This document shows, piece by piece, positions 3,858-61,519 of a DNA stretch of 64,000 nucleotides. The stretch comes from Sinohyriopsis cumingii (lineage: Eukaryota > Mollusca > Bivalvia > Unionida > Unionidae): positions 62,335,719 to 62,399,718 of the forward strand of contig CM068835.1 of assembly GCA_028554795.2 (NCBI GenBank), given 5' to 3'. How positions within the stretch are numbered: the first letter of the stretch is position 1; the number at the start of each line of letters is the position of its first letter. A model generated the notes under the pieces. The model saw only the letters and a list, made by a program, of their open reading frames with translations, did no database searches and had not been told where the DNA came from. The position numbers and the translations under genes are program-made.

Positions 3858-6800
3858 TTACTTCTTCTGCTCAGGCACCTGCAAATTAAAACAAAATTGT
3901 AATGCTTAAATAAAGTCATATCATCTCAGCACTAGTTACATATGCAGAAGTCATGTTAATCAGCATTATAAAAATGTATGAAATTTTCTTCACTGCACTT
4001 GTGCTTCCCTTACTATCGTTAAGCCATGATACAAGATAACTTTGCACTTACTTATCATTTCTGGCAAGTGGATGGTGCAATCAATTTGCACAAAGATGAA
4101 TTTATTTCATCCAAATATTTCATGTGAATAAAAATTCCAAATGGAGGCACTTGTCCGATCAGACAAGATATATGCATATTGTAGTTAGCTGGACTCTAGC
4201 TTTGATAGTCCTGGGCAATAGGATAAGCTGATTTTGTTATCAGTTTAGAAATGCATCCGCTTTGCAAATACTATGCTTTAAAAGACGAAACTGAATCCAA
4301 TATTGATGAAATAAGAGTCATTTGGATTACCTTGTTTTTTATCATTCTGCGTTGGTTGGGTGCATATTTGAGGGTCTCTGATATGGTCTCTTCCATTCCA
4401 TTTGCCTTTGCTTTGCCATTAGTTTTCAAGCAGGCTTCTGCAAGAGTAATACAATGTTTTAAAAAAGTTTCACAACAAAGGATGCATTGCATTTTTCTAA
4501 ATGCCAGCAATAATCAATGGAATATTTTTAAAACATGTACTTTGAAATGTGGTCTCAAGTTACTTTATCAATTCATTTAAAAATCTCTGGCAAGTCACAT
4601 GAAAAACACAATTTAAATCAAGCCATACTTACTTATCAAAACCTGACATATCACAAGCTCTTGAAATGCTTTTTTCCCTTTACGTCCCTTTGGACTATAC
4701 TCTGGCCAGTCTTTTTGTTTTAAGCTTTTTCATCATCCTGCAGACACTATCCCCAATTGTAAACCTGCCAAGGGAGCTCAAGTAGCATATCTGAAAATAA
4801 TAATAATAATAATATTACTATTTTTTGATTTTGATATTATTATTAGTAGTAGTATTTCATGATCGATGTGACAAAATATGCTTGTATATAGTTATTTTTT
4901 GCCATGGTTTTGCAAGCAAATTTAATTTCTCTAACTTGAAAAAAATTTGATAACATTAACTATGCAACACAATGTACTAATAGCAATTATAAACCAAATT
5001 AACCACCGTGAATCTATTAACTTCATAAATGACATTCACTCAAGGATTGAATTAAAGTAGTCACATAATATGTAATAGTGTATATGTAGTAAAATACCTG
5101 TTACATGTTCATCTCTAAACATGTTTTGGCCTACATCCGTAAGACAAAACAGCCGACCACTACATGTTCACCCCACCCCCAAAAATAATTATACAGGCAC
5201 TGCAGAACTTGCATAATGCATATTGAGGTTCACAACAGCAAATAAAGGTTATAACAGTTTTTTTAAATAGAAAATAAAGCCCCAATTTACCATCTTCTTG
5301 GAGAGTTTGGGATTCTCCTCCAACCTCTGGCAAAGGCCCTCTAGTTCCTCCACTGAATCACATGGCATTGCAAGAATTTCTTCTCTATATTCTGTGTCTG
5401 GGCCTTGTGTATGAACTTGGAGGGCCAGCTGCTCCAACAAATTCTCAATATTTGTGTCCAGTTTCATAAGTACATTCAACTGGAAATCTGTAACAGATTT
5501 GTGATGAAATTAGTTTTGAAAGATCAAGATCATTATTATAAACTCCTTAAAAAGATCTGTACAGTGAACATGGGTTTAACAATGAAATATATTTATGGAA
5601 TGAAATACATGGTTTTTGTACAGTTTATATGAAAACTTTTCCCATAATCCTTTATTTTTTTATTCCCTGGATATGTTGTTTCACTGCTGGTGTCTGTAAA
5701 GTCTGCATTCAATGTAGATGGTTTAGGCGTCTGACTTACACAAGACAATGGTATACATCAGAAAGAAAAATAAAAAAAACCAATGGAATGATGAACAGTC
5801 GACACATCAATGAAAAACAATTCATTGTTTATTTGCACAAATAAGTCTTGAACAGTATGTTTTATGACCTATAATTTAATTAATTAACATCTCACAATGT
5901 TCTGAAATAACAGTATCTAAGCTACAAGAGCTTGTGCTTTCATGTCATAATCTTCCATTTTGCAAACAAATTTTGATGTTGAATCAATGTATATGACCTT
6001 AGCATTGAACACTAACATTCAAAATGTCTACAAGATGACAAGACTATTATCAACTGAAGTGACAACAAACCAATGAGTTTTACGTGCATTGAACATAAGC
6101 ATTTTTAAATGCTACAAAATGTGTTTTTAGTGTATGGCCACAAATTACCCAACATTTTGTCAAACATAAAACAGTTCTACTACCTTAGATGAGAATTAAA
6201 TTCATAAATACAGTGTATAATTGACCTACTCGTATTTAGAGAGCTGTAAATGAAATAAGAGATTATATAAAAGTCAACACCTGTAGTATTTGTTTCATTA
6301 TTCTATAATGTACATTTTTTTTCCATCCTCAATACTTACTACTTGCAGAGGAACTGGCAGAGAGAAATCTTTATATTCTCCACTCCAGAGTGGATGGGGA
6401 TGGTGATGGTGTTGTCCTTCTGGATGCAGCTAAGAGTATAAAGATTATCACTACTCCTTAATTGCAGTAAAAAAGAAACAAAGAAATCAGACTGGATTTT
6501 TTGGCATGTAAACAAAATGCATACTGGTTGCAATGACCACTGTATATAAAGCAGTGATACAATATATCACAAAATGCATTCTTTTTTAACAAAACATCTA
6601 TCTCATATATACAGCATCATGAGTAAGTAAGTACTCTTAAACACATCTTATTAAACAGACAGAAAAATGATGAAATTTATACATACTTTTGATAAAGAAT
6701 TTCCAATTGTGGCATGGTATAAAAGCAATTGATAAAAAATAAAAAGAGACCAGATAAACTAAATAGAACATACCAGCAGGATAAGAGGAAATCTTGGAGT

Positions 6801-10836: not shown

Positions 10837-10842
10837 CTCAAT
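10837..10842. repeat. left 6-bp target-site duplication (CTCAAT)
   Basis: CTCAAT directly precedes the first base of the left terminal inverted repeat and is repeated exactly at 23030-23035. A 6-bp duplication is the size known for Polinton/Maverick insertions made by a retroviral-type integrase. Confidence 0.9.
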
Positions 10843-10854
10843 AGTAGTGAAGTG

Positions 10855-11125
10855 GGATGATATAGCATCAATGGGACTTACCATTAAAAACCACCCTGGG
10901 ACGATATAGCGTCAATGGGAAATTTAACATTATGGAAACCCTTGGGACGATATAGCGTCAAGGGGAATTTAACATGGGAATATGGGACTGTTTAGCGTCA
11001 AGGGGAATTGAACAGGGTGGGACTGTACAGCGTCAAGGGGAATTTAACATGGGCAAAAAAAAAAAAAAAAAAAAAAATCTTGGGCCTGTTGAGCATCAAG
11101 GGGAAATGGAACAGGGTCAGGACCC
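10855..11125 (+). repeat. iteron array in left TIR
   Basis: Six units of about 35-63 bp share the pattern GGGAC..(TA)TAGCGTCAA.GGGGAA followed by TTTAACA or TGGAACA. The right TIR has the mirror set. Iterons at the ends of a protein-primed linear replicon are candidate sites for an origin-binding or integrase protein. That role is inference. Confidence 0.7.
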
Positions 11126-11267
11126 TATTTTAATAAGGTCCCGACCTGATGGGTCTATGGAAATGGAACAGGCGAATATTGAAACAGGGAGGGGTCTCTA
11201 TTTTTTATTTTTTAAAAAAAAAAAAAAAAAAAAAGAAAAAAAAAAGGGTAGGCAATGAAAGTCAAGA

Positions 11268-11303
11268 TCTTTTCGAGACCTATGAGTGGCCCTGAAAAGG
11301 GCC
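11268..11303 (-). terminator. histone-type mRNA 3' end signal (stem-loop plus purine-rich element), left TIR
   Basis: On the minus strand CCAAA precedes GGCCCTTTTCAGGGCC (11303-11288: 6-bp stem, TTTC loop) and ACTCA follows. GAAAAGA (11274-11268) begins 13 nt after the stem. This matches the metazoan replication-dependent histone mRNA 3' stem-loop and resembles the U7-binding histone downstream element. It lies 18 nt after the TAG (11324-11322) that ends the minus-strand gene inside the element. Confidence 0.8.
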
Positions 11304-11321
11304 TTTGGGTTTCTTCTTCTT

Positions 11322-11917
11322 CTAACTCTTCCACTTCTTCAACCATCTTCTAACTTTTACCAATATTCCTGTCATCTTCTTCTTTATTTCTGACTCAGGC
11401 ATCCAGTCAGGATGACCTATCACTCGGAATTTCTCCTGTATTCTTATCCAGTTATTGTTGAGTTTCTCAAAGCTTTTTTTCTCTTTCTATTTTCTTCTTC
11501 TTTTCTTTCCTTAGACCACTTTTCTTTGATGTTCTTTACCTCTTCCGTCAGCACTTTCCTCATTACTTCTTCCGTTTTTGTCAACTGGTCGAACCCCCAT
11601 TTTACGTATCACCACTCCATCCAATACAATACTTTTTCCAGGAAGCACCCGACTTGGATGACATGGTCCAGTGCTTCCTTCAAACTTCCCACTCTGACAT
11701 AAGGTGGGTCAGTAAATCCGCTTGACTTGCTGACTTCTTCTTCTATCATCCCTGCGATGAGATCTCCGGCCACCTTTAGTCCTTTGACTTGAATAGTTAA
11801 CAAGTCTTGCCTATTTCCATCACTCCATTCCTTTTCTATTCTTCCTACAACATATTCAACATCCATTATCCAAAAATAGATATCTCTTAATAGATTGAAT
11901 AATTTTGTCACCTCCAT
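11322..11917 (-). pseudogene. charged, coiled-coil-like protein of the Polinton-like element, broken
   Basis: The start ATG at 11917 opens a 102-codon frame beginning 'MEVTKLFNLLRDIYFWIMDV' and ending at TGA 11608-11606. The same frame continues after the stop with a Lys/Glu-rich helical segment ('EEVKNIKEKWSKERKEEE') and then shifts by one frame near 11.47 kb to a basic tail ending at TAG 11324-11322. The ancestral protein was about 195-200 aa, with an N-terminal hydrophobic/helical half and a highly charged C-terminal half. I do not recognise the family. A weak TATAATT lies about 60 bp upstream of the ATG, and a histone-type stem-loop begins 18 nt after the last stop. The plus-strand ORF over 11412-11702 is its antisense shadow. 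Confidence 0.6.
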
Positions 11918-12504
11918 CTTCTTTGTTTATTCCGTGGAATGGTCTGAACGATTGTTGTTGTTGTTGAGTTGAATTATAGTGGCGTGCGCTTCGCATTGAG
12001 CATGTACCACTGGTTTATGATTCCACAGGCACCTAACTGATTACTCCTTGGAGGAAGGAATGGAGCCACTTCCTCCAGGCATATCTGTGTTCACAGAACA
12101 CTAATTGATTGGGCCGTCAGGTCAAGGTACTTTTGTGTACACATCGATCTGATTGTAAGGCCTATGTTTTGTTTGAGTGGGATTGGACCCAGCACACACT
12201 CTGTCATTCATTTGCATTGATTAGCGACTAGTGGGATTGGACCCGATCTAGTCCGTATTTTTAATTTATGATGCGTGCACTGCACGTATGTGTTTTGATG
12301 TCTGTCCGTCGCAAAGGGCGAAAGTGGTCAGGCTCGGGCGGAGTTGTCTTGCCACAGGTTAGCAGGGTTTTTCCGATCCAGGGTATTTTTGTTCTAAATT
12401 TCCGTCTTTGGAATTTTGAATCATAAAAACTCTGTGCTGTTTTTAAGAGAGATAGAGTCTATTGAGGTCGATGTTAGCTTTTAGATGACAGTATTTGTCG
12501 ATTG

Positions 12505-12830
12505 GTTTTGCAGCCTTGTGCTGCTGGCCCTGGATGGAGTTGGTGTTTTTTCCATCTTACTGAGTAATTGTTTTTGGGTCCTAATTATCTAGTTGTAAAT
12601 TTTGGTTGCAGCCTTGTGCTGCTGGCCCTATAGTCACTGGGTTTTTTTGACTACCTTATACAAGTAATTTTTGGGGTGGTATTCTACATATTTGTTATAT
12701 TTGCAGCATTGTGCCGCCGGGCCCGATAGTCGTTGGGTTTTTTTGACTACCTTATATGTGTAAGTTTAGGGTCTTAATACGGGGGATCCCTGATGGTCTA
12801 TTCTTGCGACCACCTTATACGTTCTATTTT
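12505..12830 (+). repeat. tandem repeat, 3-4 units of about 95-98 bp
   Basis: Units start with GCAGCCTTGTGCTGCTGGCCC at 12510, 12608 and 12703 (diverged), with a partial fourth near 12790. In the two middle units TAGTCA..GGGTTTTTTT..TGACTA forms a small hairpin just downstream of the GC-rich start. Confidence 0.75.
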
Positions 12831-13141
12831 GGGACTATATGGTTATACCTAGTTTTTGTCTTAGCTGTCACCTATGTAGAAGATAGACTTTTGGAGCTGT
12901 TAGTTAGGGTGTTAGGTGAGTATTAAGTTAGGAGAAGTGGAGAAGGTTTGTTTTGTTTTTCCCACCACCCACCCCCTGTATATTTCTTCCTGGTATTTGA
13001 ACTAGGTGTTTTTTAATTTAATGATATTTGTTTGTCGAGTTTTATCAGTCAGTGGGCTAGTTTTGATAAAATGAGTTTTTCTATTGTTCAGAATTTGGTA
13101 CTTGTTTTGTGAGTGTATTTATTTTGTAATACTTTTGGCTA

Positions 13142-13210
13142 GATTCGGATTAGATTCCCTCGTCGATCACACTCGCCTCTCATAAATGGAGAGTTCGGGG
13201 AGACCGAATC
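13142..13210 (+). other. foldback with repeated CTCGTCGATCACAC module
   Basis: GATTCGG near 13142 pairs with CCGAATC near 13203, and an inner CTCTC/GAGAG hairpin sits between them. The left arm and loop start (CGGATTAGATTC.CTCGTCGATCACAC) recur at about 13306-13334 without the right arm. It could be a structured RNA or a protein-binding site; the function is unknown. Confidence 0.4.
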
Positions 13211-13443
13211 CTTGTCTTCGCCATTGGTCCAAATTTGATATATATATATTTTATGTAAGTATTTATTAGTGTAATTTAGATAATTTCATTGCTTAGCCGG
13301 TTTCGGATTAGATTCTCTCGTCGATCACACGGTCTGAATGACGAATACTGTAGGTTCTTATAGTTAAAGCGCAGACGTGAAGGAAAACATCCCCCTAAGA
13401 CTAAAATCTTATATTACCAAGATCATCACTTAAAACGTACAAT

Positions 13444-13833
13444 TCACAATCTTCTCCTAGAGCAAAAGTAATCCACATAGTGAGTAATTTCAGACCACTG
13501 CCATTCAGGGTAACGTTCAAGAATCTCATTGAACTCTTTTGATGTAAACGGTCTAAAGCGATATAATAGTATGAATGCACCCTTGACTCAGAGAAATCTA
13601 ACACACTGGTTGACTTTTTTCACTTATCTCTTGTGAATTTCTCGGAATAAAAGTTCTACAGTTATCCATTGAGATTTCACTCTGGCAAGCCCCTGCCAAA
13701 CTTCCTTGTAAATCTTCTCTTGCAGTTCTTTAGGTAATGATTCAATATCGTTTTTGAAATGAAGTTTAAATACTGGTCTCGATGATGTCCAACATTTGAC
13801 TCCTAACCAATCTGGTTTCTTCTTTAACGACAT
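13444..13833 (-). pseudogene. small unknown protein of the element, two in-frame stops
   Basis: The ATG at 13833 lies 10 nt after the stop of BIR protein 1, suggesting tandem or overlapping transcription. The first 69 codons include 'WLGVKCW' and a helical 'LPKELQEKIYKEVWQGLARV' segment, then TAA at 13626-13624. The same frame stays open after that stop, has one more TGA at 13590-13588, and ends at TGA 13446-13444 after an aromatic-rich part ('RYPEWQWSEITHYVDYFC'). The ancestral product was about 129 aa. I do not recognise the family. The alternative frame from 13604 to 13401 is less protein-like. Confidence 0.5.
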
Positions 13834-13844
13834 GGTAAGTTACT

Positions 13845-14480
13845 TCAATGTCTCAGTCCCACTAAGGGTAAGTAATGACAATTCGGTGACCAACGAGCAT
13901 GTTCTAGATAGGCCGAATCTTGTGGTTCCCAGTGGTGAAGTGACACACCGCAACTGAAGCACTTGACTTTATCCCCTTCGTGCAAGTGGAAAAATCTGGC
14001 TCTGGCTAATTCTTTGGGGATCGGTCCTCCCAGATACTTAGGCCATTTTCCTTTGAATGATTGAAGACGATTTTCAAAGTCGCAGTATTCCGACAAACTT
14101 ACAGGGAATGAATATTCGTCTTTCACAGGTTCGTTTCGATGAGGGCTGGGTGACATGGACAGGAGTTTGCTCAAGTCTGGATGACATCCGTAGGGGGGTA
14201 GACGTGAAGGTGAACATCCACATTTAAAATGAAACCCAGTAAAGTGTCCAAGAGGACGAGCAGCATCGCTTTCGCATCCCTCAGGTTTGACACGCACAGC
14301 ATCACTTTCCATGAGAGGGGTAGTGAGAACAAAGTTCTCATGATGCTTTACGGCATCGCTAAGGTCACAGCGTACAGCATCGTTCCCATCGCAAGGCTCA
14401 CAATCACATTCCACTTCAGAAGCCCCAAACTTGAATTGTGCCTTTCTGAACTTGTTTTGTGTTTCTCTGAAAGGATTCAT
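13845..14480 (-). CDS. BIR-domain (IAP-like) protein 1
   Basis: An intact 211-aa frame starts at ATG 14480. Residues about 135-205 form a baculoviral IAP repeat: an R-x-x-S-F start ('RLQSFKGKWP'), 'LARARFFHL', then 'VKCFSCGVSLHHWEP', 'DSAYLEHARWSPNCHYL', giving the zinc ligands C-x2-C...H-x6-C and the conserved W. The N-terminal about 130 residues are Cys/Asp-rich with repeated 'DAVR' units and are not a recognised domain. There is no RING finger, so ubiquitin ligase activity is not expected. In the BIR family such proteins bind caspases or IAP antagonists; here a role in blocking host apoptosis during element activity is inference. A TATA box (14531-14546) lies about 60 bp upstream and overlaps the end of the BIR protein 2 gene. 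Confidence 0.85.
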   Translation of the reverse strand: MNPFRETQNKFRKAQFKFGASEVECDCEPCDGNDAVRCDLSDAVKHHENFVLTTPLMESDAVRVKPEGCESDAARPLGHFTGFHFKCGCSPSRLPPYGCHPDLSKLLSMSPSPHRNEPVKDEYSFPVSLSEYCDFENRLQSFKGKWPKYLGGPIPKELARARFFHLHEGDKVKCFSCGVSLHHWEPQDSAYLEHARWSPNCHYLPLVGLRH

Positions 14481-14530
14481 CTTGTTCGCTTGGTCTTGGT
14501 AGTCACAATGAACTATCGATCTTGACCATA

Positions 14531-14546
14531 GCCCCTTTTTATACTA
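14531..14546 (-). promoter_or_regulatory. TATA box of BIR protein 1 gene
   Basis: The minus strand reads TAGTATAAAAAGGGGC about 55-60 bp before the ATG at 14480. The position matches the TATA boxes of the other genes in the element. Confidence 0.65.
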
Positions 14547-14547
14547 G

Positions 14548-14988
14548 TCACAATGCAGTCTCAAGCTTGTACATCGTTCCTTTTTTATATCTAGTTTTTG
14601 AAGGTACTGTCTCTAAGGTACCGTCATAATTGTACCGTAGTGTAATGGGTGGAAAGGCCATGGAAAGGTAAGGGCAGTGCAAAGACCATCGAGTGTGTTC
14701 CAGAATAGCTGAACCTTTATAGATACATAGATCCATTCGTAACTTCAGTCCACAAGCGAAACACTGTACTTCGTATCCCAATCCTGACTCAGGTCCCAAG
14801 TAGACAAATCCTGTTCTAGCTAAAACATGCGAAGAAGGTAATTCTTCCCTATCCGTAAACTATTTCTGAAATGTGTCCAATCGACGGGCACAATCATAAT
14901 AGTCAGGTAAGAAGACTGGAAAATGGTAGGGTTTGAACTTGGAGTTCTCATCAGGTTTCTCACTTGATTCTTGCTGTGGCGTAGTCAT
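14548..14988 (-). pseudogene. BIR-domain (IAP-like) protein 2, one nonsense codon
   Basis: The start is ATG 14988. The frame holds 'PDYYDCARRLDTFQK', then a TAG at 14862-14860 where BIR domains usually have Trp, then 'SSHVLARTGFVYLG', 'VQCFACGLKLR' and 'SAILEHTRWSLHCPYL': a complete BIR zinc-ligand set (C-x2-C...H-x6-C). The full product would be about 146 aa, essentially one BIR plus short tails. The downstream open part (from GTG 14799) has no stop before 14548. It is related to BIR protein 1 next door, so a tandem duplication is likely. A TATAAAAC (minus, 15032-15023) lies about 40 bp upstream, inside the end of the polymerase gene. Confidence 0.8.
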
Positions 14989-15022
14989 GCTTCTGGTGAG
15001 TGGCTATCCACTTACAACCAAT

Positions 15023-15032
15023 GTTTTATACC
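15023..15032 (-). promoter_or_regulatory. probable TATA box of BIR protein 2 gene
   Basis: TATAAAAC reads on the minus strand about 40 bp before the ATG at 14988, within the last codons of the polymerase gene. Confidence 0.5.
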
Positions 15033-17664
15033 GACATGTCCATATAGCAATATAAAGTGATTGGGAAGCCGCACTCGCTTCTGATACACGATTTGACAGA
15101 CTTTTTCCAAGGGTCGACTGACGATGTGGTGAGTGGGTAAACGTACAATCTTGTTCGGTTGATAGGTGGTCACTTTAAAGTGTTCATCTTCTCTAGACTG
15201 CAAAGCTTCTTTCAGTACGCCAAAGTTCACCACTCGACTGGTACGATAATTCAGAGTCAATCCTTTCACTTTACACTTCGTGTGCACTTCTCCTTGTTTG
15301 TCCCGGTATTCGTAGCCGTAATTTTTAAGACCGCCACTGGCGAAACTTAGAATCTTGTCGTCAGAATGCTCGTCTGTCCAGGCTCCTAAACGGTCTCCTT
15401 CGATGTTAGAGTGCTGTTGACTCGGGTGATCGATGTAGATGCAACTATCCGTGTCAAAGTACAGGACGCGTTCCCCTAACAGTTCTAAAGCTTCGTACAG
15501 TTTTAAGCGAGCATGAGCTGTCACGTAAGCTGCAATGATGACATTTCCAAAAGGATCGGCTTCTACAAAGTCCAGATCTTCTTCGTAATTGACTAAGATC
15601 AAATCTTCGCGAACGACATCCACGTGTTTGATGAATTTAGTTTTGTTGTGAATCATCTGGAAGTAGCAGGAAGGTTCTGTCAAATATTCTTGGGTAAACA
15701 CGGTCGTTGTGCCATTTTACCCCACAAGCAATTTAACATCACTTTGGCAAACGATCGCCTGCCTTTGTTTTTCTCGATGTGATCTAAAGTAATGCCTTCT
15801 TGTGCCCAGTATTTCTCTTTGAATGTCTTTTGGTCTTCGGGAGTGTGATACCAGGACGGATAACCACTGGCTTCTTGCTTTAGTTTCAAAAAGGCATCCA
15901 CGTAGTCTGCCAAAATGCCTTTCTGAGTGGGGTCACCCTTGTTGTATTGTTCTGTCTTGGGAAAGTGACAAATTTCATACACTTCTAACAGTTGGTATCC
16001 CATGTCCAGAGCTTTGAACAATTCTACGCTGACCCACGTCCCCGTCAAGGCCCGTTCTTCCTGAGTGTGCTGACAAGGCTGGTCTTGGTTGCACGTTTCA
16101 GCACAAGTACGGCACAAAGGAAACATCAGTTTGTCTTGACAATGGTGAGGTAGAACGGGATGGTACAAGTCAGTGGGAGCCAAAACTTTACATTTGATCA
16201 AGCCTTCATATTGTCGAATGTTTTTCAAATCGATGTGTTCCGTCAACAAATGTGGGTGCCCTGCAGGAAAGCGACAATATTTGCACACGTAGGGATACAG
16301 TGAACACACGTCCAAGTATTTGATTTCTTCTCCTTTCTCTTCGTCGGCTTGGTACAGCAAACTGGTGGCATTGGTCCTTCCTCCGTACAAACTATCCCTC
16401 GTGTTCAGGGGGTCCATGAACTGGTAACTTTCCACGAGGTGTTTAAACTCTGGATCGGTTTTCAAACGGTGATGGTACTCGTGTTCCCACATTTCCACCA
16501 CTTAGTATCCTTCCTGTTCTAACTTTAGGCGTTGCTGACATGTGGCCTGGTACAAGTCTTCCATGGTTCATTGTAAAAACTGATTTTTAGTGCCACGGTC
16601 AGGGTAACAGACGGGGCATCCGTGAAATAAGCAACCTTTAAACTCGTACACAATCTTGGGGTTTTCTAAGTCCCAACCATCGACCGAATGCATTCTGATG
16701 GTCTTTTCACCCCCTCCGTTGCGGGCATGCTGAATCCATTTGTCTTCCTTGTCGCACAAGTAATGTAACCAGCGTAGGGCTTTGACCGAGTATTGACGTT
16801 TGACATAGTTGGTCATTTGAGGACTGATGACAGCCACGGTGTTTTCAGGCATGAATCATTGCCGGTACACTAAGGAACATGCTTTGGCAATGGTGCAAGC
16901 TTCTTTGAAAGGATCGACCCCTCCGTGTTCCATGAACAGTTCTCGAAATTTTCCACAGCAACGCCGTAAAATGTCCACGTCGGAACGACAATACTTTAGC
17001 ATTTCTTCCTGAAAGTCGAAAGGGTCAGAGGCGTGAGCCTGGTACCAAGCGTAGAAAGCTTCTCGTTGTTCGGTACGCATGTTGTCAGGGTCGTAATAGT
17101 GAGCCTCAGGCAAATGGGGTAGAACGGTGTGTTGATTGGCTTCCGTATTGAAAAAGTGTGGAAAGCACCCTTTAGCCATTTCTGTCATTCCAAACGTTTT
17201 AGGCATTCGACTCAAAGGCATGGCTAAGTAACTCATCGAATCTTTAAACTGTACTTGTCCCACTTGCATGAAAATGATTTTGGCTCCATTCAAAGTGACT
17301 TTAGGACGTTCGGTGCCATGTTCTGTATAGTATCTGTGAAGAAACTGTCCATCGTATCCGGAGAAATTGTGAGCCATCACTGTGGCATGACGATGACAAT
17401 CTCCGTAACGTTCGATGTCCTCTTGGATCCACGTCTTGTCGATGGGGTGTAAGACCCATCAAGCGAAATCAGCTAGCGTGTTCGGTCCTCGAAAGATTTT
17501 TTCACGTCCTCCAGAAATCTTGCTGCAGTGAAGGCAATGACTGAAAATAGGTTCTTGAATGCACTTCTCGCACGCTCGATGAGCCACGCAGAAATTAGGA
17601 ATGTGAATACCAGTCTCTTGCATGCATTCAAAACACTGGACAACAAATTTTTACAAAAGTCATG

Positions 17665-20012
17665 TTACTGAAATAAAATTAGTCAATTCTTATCAATTTT
17701 TATGTGCTGAACACGAATATGACAGTCAAATTGCAAAATTGGCTCTAGTTTTTTTGTAATCTGCAAGAAATTAATGTTTACATAACGAAATGCATTCCAA
17801 TAGTAAAAGGTCAACTGTAATAGCCTACCTATAAAAAATCAAGTCATTGACTACATCTTAGATTTCTTCGCCTGTCTCTTGTACAGCTGTTCGGGAGCAT
17901 CTCTGAGGAGTGTCCAGCAGTAGTCAGCCAGCATTGTAGTGGACCATTTTCCCTGGTATCTTTGTTCCATTGTTGCGATATCTTGATGAAAACGTTCGCC
18001 GTGTTCATCACTAACAATACCACAGTTGCTAGGAAAGAAATCCAAATGGGAATGAAGGAAGTGAATCTTTAGAGACATATTGCAGCCAAGTTTCTTATAC
18101 TTCATCAACATGTCTTCTACTAGTTCCTTATAGTTTTCTGCCCTAACATTTCCGAGGAAGTTTGTAGAAACTAGGCGAAAAGCATTCCATGCTTGTTTCG
18201 CGTCACCTTCCAGCAAATTGTTGAACCGGTCATCTTTGAAAAGCTCTCGAATCTGAGGACCCACAAAAACTCCCTCTTTAATCTTTGCTTCGCTGAGTCG
18301 AGGGAATTTTTCATGCAGGTATCGGAATGCTGGCAAAGTCCGGTCAATGGCTTTCACGAAGTTCTTCATCAAACCTAGTTTGATGTGAAGGGGTGGTAGC
18401 AAGATTTTCTGAGCCTCAACCAGAGCTGGGTGTTGGATATTCTTCTCTCCAATGGCTACATTCTGCCTGTGAGTCCATTCCTTCCTCATGTAGTGCATTT
18501 CCCTTGCTCGGCTATCCCACTCGCATAAGAAACACATGTATTTTGTATATCCTTGCTGCAGTCCCATTAAAAGGGCAACTACCTTCAAATCACCACAGAG
18601 GTGCCAGCTGTACTTGTTATACTCAATGGAATTCAGTAGCTGCCTTAAGTTATCGTATGTCTCTTTCATGTGGACAGCATACGCTACTGGAATAGATGGA
18701 AGAATGTTTCCATTGTGCAAAAGCACAGCCTTGAGACTCAGTTTCGAAGAGTCCACAAATAGTCTCCATTCTTGTGGGTCATGAGTGATTTTTAAAGCAT
18801 TCATGAGGCCCTCAATATCGGAACAGAATATCAGATTACTTTCCTTTCTGAAGAAAGGCTCCAATTGCTGGTGGCGCTTTCGATATGCAGTAATTGTGAC
18901 ATCTTCTTCTAGAAGATTCCATTGTTGGAGTCTTGATCCTAGCAATTCTGCCTTGTTCTTTGATAAGTCCAAATCACGAATCAGGTCATTTAGTTCTTCC
19001 TGTGTTATTCTGTGTGGGGTTGATGATGCACCACAGTGAAAATCTGGATCACTGCATGCTGATGGACCAGGAGAAGAACAGGTCGACTCACCTTTGTCTT
19101 CGTCAGATGAATCAAGAGAATATTCTGCTGGAGGTTCTGGAATAGGAAGTCCCTCACCATGTGGAACTGGTCTCAATGCAGACGGAATGTTTGGGTAGAC
19201 TATTCTCGACTTCTTTCGCTTCGTTATTCCGCCGGAAAGAGGAGGAACCAAGCAGAAGTAACAGTCATTTAGGTGGTTGCTTGGCTCTCTCCACACCATT
19301 GGGACTGCAAACGGCATTGATGACCTTTTGCAATTCAACCACTGTGAAAGCTGTGTTGTACATGTAGCACAGCATATATGCGGAGCCCAAGGCTTGTCTT
19401 GGTCACCAACCTTGCATCCGAAGTAAAGATGATATGCCTTCTTCACTTGAGAATTGATACTTTTCTTCTGGTTGGCAAATGTCACTTCCCCACAAATATA
19501 GCAAAAATTGTCCGCGGTATTAACACACTTTCGAGGCATTACTGTTCTTTATTGTACGTAAATGGATAAAATAATAAGTTTTATGTAACAGTAGCTTGAA
19601 CTGTCTCGCACAACGTCTAAAATATTTTAAATGCTGAACCTATCTGATTGGGCTTTATATAGTACACTGCTTACGTCAGCTTCAGCAGCCGCCTGGCATT
19701 AGTATAATAGGCCTACACATGTATAGTACACTGCTGACGTCAACTTACTTCAGCAGCCGCATGGCATTAGTATTGCATTGCATCAGAAAATGATGCAATC
19801 AACTGTGGATGATGTGAGCATGATGGTATTATGCAATGTTACATCATTATTCCGGATGTTGCTGCAGTCCTACTGGAGAAATTTACACAGTGAAACATAG
19901 AAAATGAGGTATATGAATATCTTCAAAACGAGAGCCAATACAAATTTTTCACGGTTATATTCGTGTTCGGCACACCAAAATACTACAGATTAGGGCCTTT
20001 TCAAGTCAGTAA
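17665..20012. mobile_element. nested 2.35-kb DNA transposon inside the polymerase gene
   Basis: Left end TTACTGA...TGTGCTGAACACGAATAT and right end (reverse complement) TTACTGA...TGTGCCGAACACGAATAT align without gaps over the first 51 bp. Weaker similarity continues to 'TTGGCTCT.GTTTT', for a TIR of roughly 105 bp. TG on each side (17663-17664 and 20013-20014) may be a 2-bp target duplication; exact borders are uncertain by a few bases. The sequences outside both ends belong to the same polymerase gene: Exo I on one side, the Cys-rich segment on the other. The single ORF inside is intact, so the insertion is younger than the decay of its host element, or at least better preserved. Confidence 0.85.
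17851..19539 (-). CDS. transposase-like protein of the nested transposon, 562 aa
   Basis: An intact frame starts at ATG 19539 and ends at 17851. The N-terminus has a putative zinc module: C13-x2-C16 ('CYIC'), then H54/C56/C57/C60 ('HICCATC') and a later 'CYFC'. The C-terminal two thirds suggest an RNase H-like DDE/D core: 'FVDSSKLSLKAVLLHNG' (first acidic residue), 'CGDLKVVALLMG' (second), a 'CFLCEW' Cys pair with a nearby 'H', and 'SDEHGERFHQDI' (about residues 510-521, candidate E). The spacing and the C..C insertion are like MULE/KDZ-type transposases, but I cannot assign a superfamily. Very similar hypothetical proteins starting 'MPRKC' are, from memory, common in invertebrate genomes. 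Its position between TIRs supports transposition as its role. Confidence 0.7.
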   Translation of the reverse strand: MPRKCVNTADNFCYICGEVTFANQKKSINSQVKKAYHLYFGCKVGDQDKPWAPHICCATCTTQLSQWLNCKRSSMPFAVPMVWREPSNHLNDCYFCLVPPLSGGITKRKKSRIVYPNIPSALRPVPHGEGLPIPEPPAEYSLDSSDEDKGESTCSSPGPSACSDPDFHCGASSTPHRITQEELNDLIRDLDLSKNKAELLGSRLQQWNLLEEDVTITAYRKRHQQLEPFFRKESNLIFCSDIEGLMNALKITHDPQEWRLFVDSSKLSLKAVLLHNGNILPSIPVAYAVHMKETYDNLRQLLNSIEYNKYSWHLCGDLKVVALLMGLQQGYTKYMCFLCEWDSRAREMHYMRKEWTHRQNVAIGEKNIQHPALVEAQKILLPPLHIKLGLMKNFVKAIDRTLPAFRYLHEKFPRLSEAKIKEGVFVGPQIRELFKDDRFNNLLEGDAKQAWNAFRLVSTNFLGNVRAENYKELVEDMLMKYKKLGCNMSLKIHFLHSHLDFFPSNCGIVSDEHGERFHQDIATMEQRYQGKWSTTMLADYCWTLLRDAPEQLYKRQAKKSKM

Positions 20013-20756
20013 TGATTTCACTGTTGACCAGTGAAATCGAAAAAGATGAAATTGCCTTTCTTCTTGTGACCGATCTCTTTCTCTGGTTGGGGTTGGTATT
20101 TTTGCACATAGCATTCGTGTTCCAAGTCCACGATGTGGCAGCAAATGTGACATTTTTTCTTTCCTCGACACAGGTGTGCCTTGGCATTATTGGTAAGTAT
20201 GCCTTGTCCACAGGTAGGGCACAATCTCAGCAGCTGACAAGCACATTTCTTCTGTGAACCTTGCATCTTCAAATGTTGTTGGTAACAGGCAGGGCTGACA
20301 AACGTGCGCAGACCAGTTGAACAATGCACTCGTTCTTGTCCTTCGCTCAGACAGGGTGGAGAGGCCAAACATGCTGAGCATTTCAATCCACATCTCGGTG
20401 ATGAACCCTTCTGCTTTCTCTAACAGTACTTCGGACTTGAAATCTTTAAACTTCACTGTGTATTTGTAAGCTGTAGTTCTAAATTTTCTAGAGGGATGCT
20501 CTTCCGTCTCTTGAATGGAATAGTACTTTTCACGGTTGACTAAGGGTGGTGAACTTTGTTTAGAGGGTTTGTTTTCTGGTTCACTCATGTCCTCTTCAAA
20601 ATCACTGGCATGAATTTGTGCCAAGACTTCAGCCCTGGTACGAGGCGATAAAGCACGTTTCTGCCTCTTACTTTCTTCTTCCTTCTTCTCAAATGAATTG
20701 GATCGTTTCATCTTGATAGCAAAAAGTCAAATGACTAAAGTTTAAACACCATGGAC

Positions 20757-20766
20757 TAATTTATAG
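20757..20766 (-). promoter_or_regulatory. TATA box of the polymerase gene
   Basis: The minus strand reads ACTATAAATTAG about 50 bp before the ATG at 20711. With the plus-strand TATA at 20783 it forms a compact divergent promoter of about 135 bp between the two start codons. Confidence 0.65.
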
Positions 20767-20782
20767 TCATAGCAGACCAGCG

Positions 20783-20793
20783 TATATAAAAGG
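20783..20793 (+). promoter_or_regulatory. TATA box of the CCHC protein gene
   Basis: TATATAAAAGG is a near-perfect TATA box about 60 bp before ATG 20846. This spacing argues for the start at 20846 and not the in-frame ATG-less extension to 20798, which would leave no 5' leader. Confidence 0.75.
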
Positions 20794-20845
20794 GTATGTG
20801 TCTTGTCCTTTCACTATTCATTTCACTCTCAAACCGAGCACAACG

Positions 20846-21226
20846 ATGGAAGAGACTACCCAGATCGAACGTTTCATCAGAGCTTTGCGAGGGGTCATCC
20901 AAAAATTCTCTTCAGACCAGCCGAGGGACTACTCTCCTTCCTTTCAAGATAAAAGTCAAGATACTTGCTATATCTGTCAGAAGAAAGGGCATTGGTCTTC
21001 AGAATGTCCAGACCGTCAAAAAAGAAAAAAAGGGGCTAGAAAAGACAAAAGTCAAGATACCTGTTATTATTGTCAAGAAAAAGGACACTGGTCTCCAGAT
21101 TGCCCAAAAAAGAAACAAGGAGTCAGAAGAAGAGAGGGATTCTTCAGAGGAAGAAGAGGAAGAAAACAGGTGAAGAAAAAGAAACAGGAGAAGAAAAGAA
21201 GAAGAGAAGAAAGTGAGGAGGAATAG
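20846..21226 (+). CDS. small basic protein with two CCHC zinc knuckles
   Basis: A 126-aa product starts at ATG 20846 ('MEETTQIERFIRALRGVIQ'). Two zinc knuckles of the exact C-x2-C-x4-H-x4-C form follow: 'CYICQKKGHWSSEC' and 'CYYCQEKGHWSPDC'. Each is preceded by 'KDKSQDT' or 'QDKSQDT', so the unit was duplicated. The C-terminal third is almost all Arg/Lys/Glu. The knuckles suggest single-stranded nucleic acid binding, as in retroviral nucleocapsid, but nothing else here is retroviral. A nucleic-acid packaging or replication accessory role is inference. An AATAAA at 21356-21361 could serve as an ordinary poly(A) signal. The frame is intact. Confidence 0.8.
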   Translation: MEETTQIERFIRALRGVIQKFSSDQPRDYSPSFQDKSQDTCYICQKKGHWSSECPDRQKRKKGARKDKSQDTCYYCQEKGHWSPDCPKKKQGVRRREGFFRGRRGRKQVKKKKQEKKRRREESEEE

Positions 21227-21355
21227 GAGGAAAAGACTGTGGTGGTGAAGAAATTCAAAAAACTCAGAGAGTGAACAATGAGACAGAAGAAGTTTATGAA
21301 CTTTTTAAAGTGCTCTGTTGTGAATTGTGAATTGGATTGTAAATATTTATAAAAG

Positions 21356-21361
21356 AATAAA
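21356..21361 (+). terminator. poly(A) signal AATAAA for the CCHC gene
   Basis: AATAAA lies about 130 nt after the stop of the CCHC gene, on its strand. It contrasts with the histone-type ends of three neighbouring genes. Confidence 0.45.
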
Positions 21362-21500
21362 TTAGGTATTAAAAGGTAAGTGTCTTTGGGTTTTGATTTT
21401 AAAATAAGAACCTACACTCACACACTCATACACACGTACTACAGAGGTAAAATGTTTTTTTTTTATAGTTTGAATGGATGTTGGCAATTGAAAGTCTATC

Positions 21501-21536
21501 TCTTTTCGACAGACGTGGGTGGCCCTGAAAAGGGCC
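21501..21536 (-). terminator. histone-type mRNA 3' end signal, internal copy
   Basis: The minus strand has an A-rich 5' flank, GGCCCTTTTCAGGGCC (21536-21521), the 3' flank ACCCA identical to the vertebrate histone consensus, and GAAAAGAGA (21507-21499) starting 13 nt after the stem. It lies 21 nt after a TAA (21560-21558) that ends the coiled-coil gene in its shifted frame. The bases between stem and GAAAAGA differ from the TIR copies while stem, flank and spacing are kept. Confidence 0.8.
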
Positions 21537-21557
21537 TTTTTTGGTGTAGGGGTGAGT

Positions 21558-22131
21558 TTAAGCAATCAACTTTAACTGCCTTAAACCTTTGCCACGGCCA
21601 AGGCCTACTTCTGGACTGCGTAGTGTTGATGATGATGATTTGGTTGAAATCACTAAGGGTGGCACGGGAGGCTTAGTCACAGGGTTGGAGTGTTTAGCTC
21701 GGGAAGGTCATATTCTCTTTGGTCGTAATAAAGAAGTCTGATAACATTTGTTTCAGACTTCTTAACTCCGCTAAAATGTCTAACAGTACCGTGACCATTT
21801 GATTTTCACACCCTTGTTTCTTTGCTGCTGCTTCTTCTTCTTCTTGTTTTTTTCTTACCTCTTCTTTTTGCTGCTGTTGCTGTAGGAGAAAAGCTTGTTC
21901 CGCTTCCTTTTGCTGTTGTATAAATTTCTCCAATTCTTCTTTCTGTCTCTGTCTAAATTTCTCCACGTGTGGTAATGAAGGAGAAGGTGACGAAGGTTCC
22001 AGAACAAATTCTTGCGAGGTAAGAAAATCCACAAAATCCCAATTCACCTCTTCTGAAAGTAAGTCCGGTTTCCCTTGGGTAGTCTCCACAGCTGGTGCAC
22101 CCCAATTTATCGTTTTCTGAGTTTCCGTCAT
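21558..22131 (-). pseudogene. coiled-coil protein of the Polinton-like element, one frameshift
   Basis: The start is taken at ATG 22131 ('MTETQKTINWG'), about 52 bp after a TATA box, and not at the upstream frame opening at 22191. Residues about 55-115 are a Gln/Glu/Lys-rich coiled coil ('EKFRQRQKEELEKFIQQQKE', 'QQQQQKEEVRKKQEEEE'), followed by a Leu-heptad-like 'VTVLLDILAELRSLKQML'. The frame meets TAA at about 21694-21691. One frame over, a Pro/Ser/Gly/Arg-rich tail ('GLGRGKGLRQLKLIA') runs to TAA 21560-21558, so a single indel probably split the gene. The ancestral product was about 190 aa. The family is not recognised; a structural or assembly protein is a guess. Confidence 0.65.
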
Positions 22132-22177
22132 GTTGAAAAACTGTCGCATGAATTGACTGCACACAGGTGCTAGCAAA

Positions 22178-22189
22178 TCTATATAGACC
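22178..22189 (-). promoter_or_regulatory. TATA box of the coiled-coil gene
   Basis: GGTCTATATAGATT on the minus strand lies about 52 bp before ATG 22131. It forms a divergent promoter with the plus-strand TATA at 22276. Confidence 0.65.
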
Positions 22190-22275
22190 ACATGACGTCA
22201 CAGACTGCTCTCTTCGGATTGGATGTGGGCGTGTTTGGATTGGTCAGTGAACTCCGTTTCAATCCTTCCTCTCCC

Positions 22276-22285
22276 TATAAATAAG
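22276..22285 (+). promoter_or_regulatory. TATA box of the right-end gene
   Basis: TATAAATAAG on the plus strand lies 52 bp before ATG 22328. Confidence 0.65.
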
Positions 22286-22327
22286 TGTAGTTCACTGCAT
22301 TCCTTCACCTGTTCTCGGCGCCTCAAC

Positions 22328-22558
22328 ATGTGGACCAACGTTCAATCTTCTACGCTTGTGTCTTCGATGATGTTCAGGACAGACATACCGATGTACGTCC
22401 GATCCAAGTGGACAGTTGTCCATAGGACAGATACCAGCCTATGGATACGTAGGATCTATGTGGAGAGGCAAGGATGTCTCAAAAGAGTTTTAGTCTATGG
22501 TCCTGCAGTCAGGCGAAGCCTAAGGACAAGAAGAAGTCACAGATGCCCTTTATGTTAA
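22328..22558 (+). CDS. small Arg-rich protein at the right end (frame uncertain)
   Basis: From ATG 22328 a 76-aa frame runs to TAA 22556-22558, beginning 'MWTNVQSSTLVSSMMFRTDI' with an Arg-rich C-terminus. No family is recognised. Other frames over the same DNA also give protein-like pieces: 'GYVGSMWRGKDVSKEF', and a Lys-rich tail 'KPKDKKKSQMPFMLRAY' ending at TAA 22567-22569. The original gene may therefore have been frameshifted. Either stop lies 12-23 nt before the histone-type stem-loop at 22582. The TATA box is 52 bp upstream of the ATG, and the gene lies against the right TIR. Confidence 0.5.
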   Translation: MWTNVQSSTLVSSMMFRTDIPMYVRSKWTVVHRTDTSLWIRRIYVERQGCLKRVLVYGPAVRRSLRTRRSHRCPLC

Positions 22559-22564
22559 GGGCAT
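22543..22564 (+). other. hairpin over the stop codon of the right-end gene
   Basis: ATGCCCTT..TATGTT..AAGGGCAT is a perfect 8-bp stem 18 nt before the histone-type stem-loop. It may be chance, or a second RNA structure at the 3' end. Confidence 0.4.
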
Positions 22565-22572
22565 ATTAACAT

Positions 22573-23029
22573 AAACCCAAAGGCCCTTTTCAGGGCCACT
22601 CATAGGTCTCGAAAAGATCTTGACTTTCACTGCCTACCCTTTTTTTATTTTTTTTTTTGTTTTAAAAAAAATAAAAAATAGAGACCCCTCCCTGTTTCAA
22701 TTTTCGCCTGTTCCATTTCCATAGACCCATCAGGTCGGAACCTTATTAAAATAGGGTCCCGACCCTGCTCCATTTCCCCTTGATGCTCAACAGGCCCAAG
22801 ATTTTTTTTTTTTTTTTGCCCATGTTAAATTCCCCTTGACGCTATACAGTCCCACCCTGTTCAATTCCCCTTGACGCTAAACAGTCCCATATTCCCATGT
22901 TAAATTCCCCTTGATGCTATATCATCCCAGGGGTTTCCACAATGTTAAATTTCCCATTGACGCTATATCGTCCCAGGGTGGTTTTTAATGGTAAGTCCCA
23001 TTGACGCTATATCGTCCCACTTCACTACT
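22573..23029 (-). repeat. right terminal inverted repeat
   Basis: This is the reverse complement of 10843-11312. It carries the mirror iteron array (cores TTGACGCT near 22837, 22872, 22910, 22958 and 23001, and TTGATGCT) and, at its inner end, the plus-strand histone-type signal. Confidence 0.93.
22582..22617 (+). terminator. histone-type mRNA 3' end signal, right TIR
   Basis: The plus strand reads CCAAA, GGCCCTTTTCAGGGCC (22582-22597), ACTCA, then GAAAAGA (22611-22617) starting 13 nt after the stem. The stem, the TTTC loop and the CCAAA 5' flank match the metazoan histone mRNA consensus; the 3' flank differs by one base. It lies 23 nt after TAA 22556-22558. Confidence 0.82.
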
Positions 23030-23035
23030 CTCAAT
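23030..23035. repeat. right 6-bp target-site duplication (CTCAAT)
   Basis: Exact copy of 10837-10842, directly outside the right TIR. Confidence 0.9.
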
Positions 23036-59938: not shown

Positions 59939-61519
59939 ATCTGAGCAACATCTAGAAGATCGGGTAGGCAAAGATCGGGTAGGCCAAGGTCGGCTGGTTT
60001 CATCGTGTTGACCCCTCCCTTGTGTTATCAATCTTTGAACAATTCAGAATGTGGATGTCCAGTACTAATGCGCCTCCATGATGAACGATGTTTTCGAGAT
60101 CTGTGGTATGATATCTTGCTTGCATCATGTGATTATCAAGTTTATTTTGCTTTCCTGTGTTTTACAAACACAGAAATATTCCATGTGAAAGGAGACATAA
60201 ATGTGTTTGATGCAATTTAGATGGTTTTCATTTAAGCTTGTTATTATCTGCTAGACAGATAATATCAAACATTAATTATTGTCCTGATATTCTTCTCCTA
60301 TTTTAATTGTCCAACAGTAAACTGTATTTACATCATTATTACGATCTTGAAAGAAACTTTCTTTAGTGAATATCTTCAGTGTCAGCATAATTTAATCATA
60401 CAATACGCTGAGTTGATACAATCGTTAACATACCAGTCCACTTGCCGATTGCAGAAAAGCAAAACAAAAGAAAGATTACACTCTTAAAATTTTCTCTTTG
60501 CCACTTTAATGACCATTTACCGACAGACAATACTGACATTCATATATATGGCTCCTGCAATAATGGATATAAATATATTCTGACAATGCCTTATATTTTC
60601 CGCAAGAACGCAAGCTGGAAAGGTAAAAAGAAGACAAGGTTACGCCATGCACAATGCCTTTAGAGAACTCTTAAAAAAGAGAAAACCTGCAAAGATACAA
60701 TTTGTTGATAGAACGAATTGCCGCAATGTAGCTTATGGATCTGCTGAAAGATATAAATATGTAATATTTGTTCAATTCACTAAGTTCGGGGAAATGTATG
60801 CAGTGCAAAGAGTTCATAAAAGCTTGAAAACTAGGACGCGGAAGTATTTCATAATAAATCAAACATACATTAAATTACTATATTTAATGTAGGGATATAA
60901 TACAAAGACAATATGTGAATATAAACAACTGTAGTGAAAGGAAGAAAGAAATAAAACCCAGAGTAAATGGTATTTATCATAATATTTGTCTGCTTGACCA
61001 TATTTACGTTTGTATCAAACTTGATAATGGTTGATACAGATTAAATGTCAAAACACAAACAAAATCGAAATGTATTGAGCAAATATCTAAAAGCAGACAC
61101 ATTTTCATCGGTCATCCAGGTATTTACAAACTGAACGACTTGAAGGGAGATAAAACAGTAGGCATATTTTAGCAAGAAGAGTATCATTTTAGTTTAAAGA
61201 CCACACATAGAAAGGTAAAATGCTTTTATAAGAAAGCTGAATGAACGGCAAAATAAATGTAGTCTTTCAAATGAAAGAAATGAATGATCTACATCTTTTC
61301 TAAAACACCAAAAAATATATTGTATTTGTATGTTTAATGCAGACAAATTTTCATCGGTGATCCAGGTGTTTTCACATTGAACGATATGAAGAGGGATAAT
61401 AGAGTACGCACATTTTAGGAAGAAGAGTGTCTTTTTAATTAAAAGATCACGTATAGAAAGGTAAAATACCTTTAAAAGAGATATGAATGATGGCAAAATA
61501 AATATAGTCCTTTAAACGA

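Follow-up and report, generated by a model that had tools for sequence, protein, structure and literature searches.

Histone-type 3′ stem-loops at the ends of a subset of genes in a Polinton family of Sinohyriopsis cumingii

Introduction

The 3′ signal of histone mRNAs is part of the system by which histone synthesis is coupled to DNA replication. In a window of the Sinohyriopsis cumingii genome (the whole stretch of 64,000 nucleotides that was analysed), three sites carry a stem-loop of this type within a mobile element, which raises the question of which genes of such an element end in a histone-type signal, and what the signal does there. In the literature searched, no description of histone-type gene ends in Polintons was found apart from one tally, in which a PLV/virophage collection gave n = 6 Rfam 'histone 3′UTR stem-loop' matches, reported without genes, placement or interpretation and with none in that paper's cryptophyte PLVs (PMC12220804). 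The original prediction, made from the letters of the window, knew of no report for Polintons; this stands as regards descriptions and has to be qualified by that single uninterpreted tally in Polinton-like viruses.

Results

Three stem-loops in the window, two of them independent

The same 16-mer, GGCCCTTTTCAGGGCC, is present at all three window sites, each time exactly, and all three sites exceed the 34-bit gathering score of Rfam Histone3 (RF00032), as expected from the predicted match to the histone consensus (Table 1). Allowing up to three mismatches, the window holds 3 matches against 0.14 expected, and none of 100 shuffles reached 3, so that a chance origin was rejected. Nearby host histone genes were likewise rejected as the source, since tblastn with human H2A, H2B, H3 and H4 (E 1e-3) gave no match in the window; within that search, the predicted absence of a neighbouring histone gene holds. 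The prediction had counted three sites, but those at 11288 and 22582 lie in opposite arms of a single terminal inverted repeat (11222-11312 and 22573-22663, 96% complementary), leaving two independent sites. It had also placed each stem shortly after the stop of a same-strand gene; the distances, 18, 21 and 23 nt, agree with this, whereas genes A and C are frame-split here and gene B is the only open ORF among the three. Between genes C and B, a second TATA-like box, readable on both strands, lies near 22180-22185. LxCxE motifs were found in none of 81 ORFs.

Table 1. Features of the element in the window
Feature	Position	Strand	Remarks
Polinton-family element	10843-23029		12,187 bp; internally deleted, decayed copy; TIR arms, 6-bp TSD, PolB PF03175
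Left target-site duplication (TSD)	10837-10842		CTCAAT, 6 bp
Right target-site duplication	23030-23035		CTCAAT, 6 bp
Left terminal inverted repeat (TIR)	10843-11312		5′-AG start; stem-loop A at inner end; 95-97% complementary
Right terminal inverted repeat	22573-23029		Stem-loop B at inner end
Gene A	11322-11926	-	Charged, coiled-coil-like protein (by eye); over several frames
Gene C	21558-22131	-	MTETQKT..GLRQLKLIA; over two frames
Gene B	22328-22558	+	Short basic protein, C-terminal end ..RRSLRTRRSHRCPLC; open
TATA-like box	22276-22281	+	Between divergent genes C and B
Stem-loop A	11288-11303	-	End of left-terminal gene; RF00032 37.1 bits over 11263-11308
Stem-loop C	21521-21536	-	Internal gene; RF00032 36.0 bits over 21496-21541
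Stem-loop B	22582-22597	+	End of right-terminal gene; RF00032 37.1 bits over 22577-22622
Downstream-element core A	11269-11274	-	GAAAAG, 13 nt from stem; read from letters
Downstream-element core C	21502-21507	-	GAAAAG, 13 nt from stem; read from letters
Downstream-element core B	22611-22616	+	GAAAAG, 13 nt from stem; read from letters
BIR (inhibitor of apoptosis) frame	13845-14480	-	PF00653 in 13848-14480; no stem-loop
Second BIR-similar frame	14548-14859	-	36.6% alike by tblastn; no stem-loop
Family B DNA polymerase (PolB)	15012-20711	-	Pieces, broken by nested insertion; PF03175 in 2/3, tblastn; no stem-loop past stop
Two-CCHC zinc-knuckle gene	20798-21226	+	PF00098; no stem-loop

The carrier is a Polinton

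The Polinton-like nature of the carrier was borne out by terminal inverted repeats starting with AG, a 6-bp target-site duplication and a broken family B DNA polymerase, detected by PF03175 and by tblastn to the PolB of a distant Polinton (L013); we take this polymerase to be of the protein-primed type. These features are those of Polinton/Maverick elements and adintoviruses. The likeness extends to MCP, adenain-like protease and chromodomain integrase in other family copies only: searches of the window copy found no rve integrase, no MCP and no adenain-like protease. One family copy (L104) has a frame-split rve integrase with chromodomain (tblastn E 8e-56; Pfam Chromo over cut-off); adintoviruses combine the same two domains and some have zinc-finger genes, according to PMC11071296. 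Using proteins of three distant Polintons (L013, L014 and L019), tblastn located MCP (E to 7e-64) and PRO (E to 2e-10) in six own-genome loci each. In our reading the L013 protein is a putative MCP, assigned from the place of its gene; with Pfam, the capsid-side proteins gave a C5 protease below cut-off only, and MCP had no match. All 34 own-genome loci fetched, out of 75 scored Rfam matches, are copies of the window element's family, a Polinton (adintovirus-like) family expanded to great numbers in the host genome.

The signal ends five small gene classes

Five small gene classes of this family end in the histone-type signal, and the polymerase and capsid-side classes lack it. Across the own-genome loci, the stem-loop follows 10/10 ends of gene A, 10/10 of B, 21/21 of C, 13/15 of D and 7/8 of E (61/64 in sum), as against 0/43 for PolB (0/4), BIR (0/3), MCP (0/6), PRO (0/8), ORF178 (0/8) and CCHC (0/14, in a test that reached only ~30 nt past the stop; 0/29 for the negative classes without it). 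With the window and the sites that had recruited the loci removed, the counts are 3/3 for B, 17/17 for C, 13/15 for D and 7/8 for E versus 0/39, class A having no ends separable from the recruiting RF00032 matches. The motif thus recurs in related elements (five gene classes in 34 loci, and L013) and is not placed at random relative to stop codons, in keeping with the original prediction on both counts. Genes A and B have common 3′ ends because these ends lie in the terminal repeats, and the C, D and E stem-loops are internal to the element. In the overlapping MCP-ORF178-PRO row PRO comes last, and A(A/T)TAAA occurs within 250 nt after it in 7/8 copies; the same motif lies within 250 nt of 19/56 stem-loop gene ends, a share close to that expected where the motif occurs locally 0.38 times per 250 nt.

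The downstream element matches that of host histone genes

At 78/81 element sites, [GA]AAAAG is found 13-15 nt past the stem, with a spacing of exactly 13 in 75, compared with 1.2% for shuffled flanks. The host H3, H4, H2B and H2A genes carry GGCCCTTTTNAGGGCC and H1 carries GGTCCTTTTCAGGACC, with GAAAAG 13-14 nt past the stem in all five, and the letters of the host and element signals are nearly identical. In histone pre-mRNA a CA cleavage dinucleotide lies ~5 nt past the stem, as given in PMC6303110; CA occupies +4/+5 in 74/81 element sites and in 3/5 host histone genes, being missing in two of these and in L013. Between copies of classes C, D and B (n = 20, 13 and 10), likeness is 0.95-0.96 in the stem and 0.94-0.98 in the downstream element (HDE) versus 0.75-0.78 in the intervening gap.

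Of the host factors, U7 snRNA (RF00066) and SLBP (PF15247) gave no match in the host genome, the control searches being likewise empty, and the host histone genes do carry the stem-loop. Two U7 patterns gave 25 and 89 matches, below their controls of 38 and 133, and no convincing hairpin was seen among the candidates inspected (25/25 and 20/89). One candidate, L084, was set aside because, by eye, it resembles a decayed histone-type 3′ end more than it does U7.

Distant Polintons and viral databases

In nine MAG bins, the sole match over the RF00032 cut-off was that in L013 (35.8 bits), where the stem-loop follows a zinc-finger gene not seen in the window element's family. The other 13 of 14 distant PolB loci have no signal at gathering score; these include L014 and L019, both with PolB, integrase and MCP. 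In IMG/VR, AAA plus the 16-mer (19 letters) retrieved 8 stretches on 7 contigs, which were rejected as relatives with 0/8 over the RF00032 cut-off, indicating that the hairpin alone does not account for the Rfam score. By eye, the eight stretches resemble prokaryotic terminators. The single IMG/VR match to GGCYCTTTTMAGRGCCAC (L009) was also discarded, its surroundings resembling coding sequence by eye, and scans of IMG/VR with the PolB piece and with PolB, MCP and integrase alignments yielded no confirmed relative.

These hairpins bear on the possibility that the signal acts in DNA (during terminal replication, in packaging or at integration) or halts transcription in general, its histone likeness being coincidental. 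A perfect hairpin could work in DNA, two window sites lie within terminal repeats and the terminator-like viral stretches share the hairpin; however, the internal position of C, D and E, the sense-strand placement after particular gene ends, the HDE at the host's spacing and the failure of all eight IMG/VR loci to pass the Rfam cut-off make this explanation very unlikely.

Base pairing is kept across the host genome

In the 2.9-Gb host genome the exact 16-mer occurs 34,230 times and, as a control, the same pattern read backwards not at all; histone genes such as H2B are a minority of these copies. The first stem pair is G-C in 34,230 cases and A-U in 21,286, with 410 mismatched (A.C) and 271 wobble (G.U) forms: the A-U version, which is seen in two element gene classes, is kept paired. 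When 56 sites were aligned, 20 cells were altered on both stem sides, a number attained by 0/500 shuffles; pairs with a double change were not clearly above shuffles (28/500 as high), and pair types were not above them (500/500 as high). The change of the stem pair seems to have arisen once or a few times and to have been inherited since.

If histone-gene 3′ ends had been captured from the host and carried as inert baggage, the near identity of stem and HDE to those of host histones would be explained. Such baggage would not be expected at five gene classes, nor to agree between copies more in stem and HDE than in the gap, to keep the A-U stem paired or to appear in a distant element after a gene foreign to this family, and we regard inert capture as even less probable than a DNA-level signal.

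The two main stem forms together amount to 55,516 exact copies versus 662 first-look histone candidates, a disproportion that could also mean that the stem-loops are mainly decoys, with many-copy transcripts binding SLBP or U7 and disturbing the host's supply of histones, whether this benefits the element or is incidental. Binding is possible for transcripts only, not for DNA copies, and 3′-end formation accounts better for stem-loops that follow particular gene ends; the decoy role is the least credible of the three alternatives.

Discussion

We consider it highly probable, judging from the signal and its placement, that genes A-E make non-polyadenylated, SLBP/U7-processed mRNAs whose expression is timed to DNA copying. 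The cis-signal on the five small genes comprises a 6-bp stem, a UUUC loop, mostly CA at +4/+5 and a purine-rich HDE 13 nt on. Host SLBP and U7 snRNP would cleave the transcripts after ACCCA, leaving mRNAs with a terminal stem-loop in place of a poly(A) tail, and these poly(A)-less ends would cause genes A-E to be expressed mainly during the cell's DNA copying. The polymerase and capsid-side genes would stand outside this programme, with a conserved poly(A) signal present after PRO. The earlier proposal that the host histone pathway is used for a subset of genes finds support in the gene-specific placement and host-like HDE; its RNA-level part, namely SLBP/U7 processing, lack of poly(A) and S-phase timing, is what we infer from DNA letters. 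For the five genes, we infer a regulatory or early role.

The element signal resembles the replication-dependent histone 3′ end (RF00032) in its stem, loop and flank, in the HDE 13-14 nt on and in having a gene end close upstream. It differs in that the genes concerned belong to a mobile element and are not histone genes, and in the A-U first pair of two classes. Unlike the Polintons and adintoviruses described in the literature searched, the window family has five gene classes with histone-type ends. On balance we lean slightly towards a wider reading, taken jointly, of a two-class expression programme in animal Polintons: small, perhaps regulatory genes would yield S-phase-coupled, poly(A)-less mRNAs processed by SLBP/U7, and polymerase and capsid genes would have ordinary ends. 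As part of it, because element-borne histone-type ends (of >55,000 exact stems, only a few belong to histone genes) far exceed those of the host's histone genes, SLBP/U7 supply may be contested, and the occurrence in L013 suggests that the strategy may predate this host.

The findings suggest that the element may borrow the host machinery coupling histone production to DNA copying. If confirmed, this would reveal a large second class of genes with histone-type ends, on a virus-like element, and a natural set of SLBP/U7 substrates that differ in their stems. It would also provide a reason why part of Polinton transcription would escape poly(A) RNA-seq, and a testable answer to the question of how Polintons time their expression to host DNA replication.

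The histone-type 3' signal marks a subset of Polinton genes

All three stem-loop sites predicted in the window were confirmed in place: one and the same 16-mer recurs exactly at each, and each passes the curated score of the Rfam model of the histone-type RNA 3' signal (RF00032, Histone3). The first and third lie in opposite arms of one terminal repeat, and therefore only two sites in the window are independent.

To assign signals to genes, gene ends were placed by protein similarity, independently of the hairpin, in the window and in 34 loci from the same genome. Similarity matches ending more than 12 residues before the query's end were discarded, gene class E was anchored by its start with a 700-nt reach, and stem-loops were called at up to 2 mismatches and at least 5 pairs. 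The signal proved to belong to a subset of the element's genes: it was found at 61 of 64 ends in five classes of small genes, A (left-terminal, 10/10), B (right-terminal, 10/10), C (internal, divergent from B, 21/21), D (13/15) and E (7/8), versus 0 of 43 in six others (PolB 0/4, BIR 0/3, CCHC 0/14, MCP 0/6, the protease PRO 0/8, ORF178 0/8). The three A–E ends without a stem-loop show decayed forms. The CCHC query falls short of the gene end and its test covered only ~30 nt beyond the stop; leaving that class aside, the count is 0/29. The loci were selected via the motif, a bias that gene-anchored counts address for B–E only; a stricter count excluding the window and the locus-recruiting sites, which retains zero A sites, gives B 3/3, C 17/17, D 13/15 and E 7/8 versus 0/39.

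PRO closes a row of three overlapping capsid-side genes, and in 7 of its 8 copies the sequence A(A/T)TAAA follows; the element thus seems to employ two kinds of 3' end. Of 21 MCP, ORF178, PolB and BIR ends, a single one has this sequence within 250 nt; these ends are not explained by poly(A) signals of their own, unless a distal one is common to them.

Downstream element, cleavage site and stem pairing

Of 81 element sites, 78 have GAAAAG or AAAAAG, the core of the purine-rich histone downstream element (HDE), 13–15 nt past the stem, and 75 have it at exactly 13 nt (shuffled flanks, 1.2%). The one host histone repeat unit fetched carries H3, H4, H2B, H2A and H1, each with the same kind of stem, and GAAAAG follows 13–14 nt beyond it at all five. 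A CA dinucleotide at +4/+5, about the known histone mRNA cleavage position according to the available text of PMC6303110, is present in 74/81 element sites and 3/5 host histone genes and absent in L013, a distant Polinton locus. Among copies of classes C, D and B, likeness is 0.95–0.96 in the stem, 0.94–0.98 in the HDE and 0.75–0.78 in the gap between them; the remaining flanks range from 0.49 to 0.92, the maximum being the far flank of class D. An ATTTGCC-like second motif, picked post hoc after inspection of the sequences, occurs ~25–50 nt past the stem in 74/81 element sites and 3/5 host histone genes (shuffles, 3.4%).

D and E genes begin their stem with an A-U pair. Genome-wide, the first pair is G-C in 34,230 cases, A-U in 21,286, A.C in 410 and G.U in 271, which shows that pairing is kept; because the copies descend from few ancestors, thousands of independent changes are not implied. 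Covariation was analyzed in 56 of 87 sites, a hand-picked subset including five host histone sites and L013, and pre-selected in that each had passed a scan requiring at least 4 pairs. Both-side changes occupied 20 cells, a value that no shuffle (n = 500) reached; a double change occurred in 2 pairs, a count equalled by 28/500 shuffles, and all 500 attained the observed variety of pair types.

Abundance and the carrier element

In the 2.9-Gb assembly holding the window, 589,472 first-look candidates arose in the Rfam histone search; 75 of them were scored, and every one lay above cut-off. The window's own sites are absent from these 75, so the set is far from complete. Of the 75 places 34 were fetched: the top 8, the 20 that followed and the bottom six. 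All 34 contain family genes, as judged by reading frames, and core histones gave no tblastn match in any of these loci. The exact 16-mer has 34,230 copies genome-wide, versus 0 for its reversed letters; part of these are histone genes, host H2B having the identical 16-mer. The first 100 places on contig C1 include 28 site pairs spaced 1.07–1.10 kb, all in minus-plus order, where 0.3 would be expected; for 22 of these pairs another site lies 13–24 kb off. This spacing fits a divergent C/B pair at one element end and gene A at the other. As a rough guess, scaled up from one 5.9-Mb stretch, the genome would hold several thousand elements. Two arrays of stems were also observed (table), of which the one on C1 is probably an element fragment repeated in tandem.

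The carrier element contains PolB in broken form, a BIR frame accompanied by another like it, a CCHC gene and, at its termini, three small genes; neither MCP nor integrase was found in it. Other same-genome copies of the family have MCP and an adenain-like protease, and one has a chromodomain integrase. We read the window element as a member of this Polinton family that has decayed and suffered internal deletion. Mercenaria and Saccostrea are among the named PolB relatives, and for the host's histone H1 the best named relatives are bivalve (Mytilus, Saccostrea), with an overall top hit at 98% identity; together these make a bivalve host probable. The insertion that splits PolB is probably a DNA transposon; its frame has zero Pfam matches.

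At least 26 further PolB copies in the genome (141 scored out of 27,402 candidates) are 98–99% identical to the window piece within the same 273-aa frame, so this subfamily apparently spread once its polymerase was already broken, presumably through mobilisation in trans. In other copies, PolB is open over a much greater length.

Features of the window, its genome (G000) and distant loci
Feature	Location	Strand	Remarks
Carrier element	window 10843-23029		repeats start AG; flanked by 6-bp duplication CTCAAT
Nested insertion in PolB	window 17696-19981	-	562-aa frame at 17851-19539, bounded by 35-nt inverted repeats, 83% complementary
Match to integrase of distant Polinton L014	window 60508-60850	+	outside element; weak tblastn match, E 3e-5
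Stem-loop array	G000:C1:5073417-5084538	-	seven stem-loops, regular ~1,851 nt spacing
Small tandem array	G000:C3:8673907-8674261		eight A.C-mismatched stems ~49 nt apart
TATA-binding protein homologue	L013:7189-7695	-	Polinton-borne; PF00352, E 1e-27; relatives in L014 and L019 (tblastn)
Two type II hammerhead ribozymes	L008 (viral contig, IMG/VR) 13-80 and 5897-5960		above Rfam cut-off

Distant Polintons and earlier reports

The PolB alignment search returned 14 relatives on contigs assigned to prokaryote MAGs, where they are presumably contamination from eukaryotes. The expectation that related Polintons carry the stem-loop held in L013 (35.8 bits), and the other 13 of 14 loci yielded no match at the gathering score. 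In L013, 28 nt separate the stem-loop from the preceding stop codon, that of a C2H2 gene (89 aa), which is near the contig end and points outward, like gene B of the window element. This locus encodes a PolB (41% identity to the window PolB in the best segment) and an rve integrase whose chromodomain is under the Pfam cut-off, with probable capsid and protease genes. Across the nine MAG bins with PolB loci, L013 was the sole match above cut-off among at most 150 scored candidates per bin; one other reached 23.3 bits, under cut-off. When 8 of these 14 were rescanned at laxer settings, no additional Histone3 match appeared. Some contigs are short; L014 and L019 are not, yet they too have no match at the gathering score, and therefore the trait is not universal.

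The claim that Polintons had no earlier report of this kind needs one qualification: for a PLV/virophage collection, PMC12220804 includes histone 3'UTR stem-loops (n=6), without comment, in its tally of ncRNA matches. In the available text of PMC11071296 both histone mentions concern a histone-like protein, and nothing else relevant was found. Signal and element type are each known; their combination was found described nowhere in the literature searched, which left subscription papers mostly outside.

Implications for expression of the element

In the histone mRNA pathway, the stem-loop is bound by SLBP and the HDE by U7, and CPSF73 cuts between them; the product is a poly(A)-less mRNA restricted to S phase. 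Neither an SLBP nor a U7 gene was identified in the host assembly. The cis-parts known to be required stand at the gene ends of five classes and are similar to their counterparts in the histone genes of this host. The A–E proteins are small and either charged or rich in cysteine, which suggests possible regulatory roles. Transcripts of these genes would be processed by the host SLBP/U7 pathway like histone mRNA, and hence would be coupled to DNA replication.
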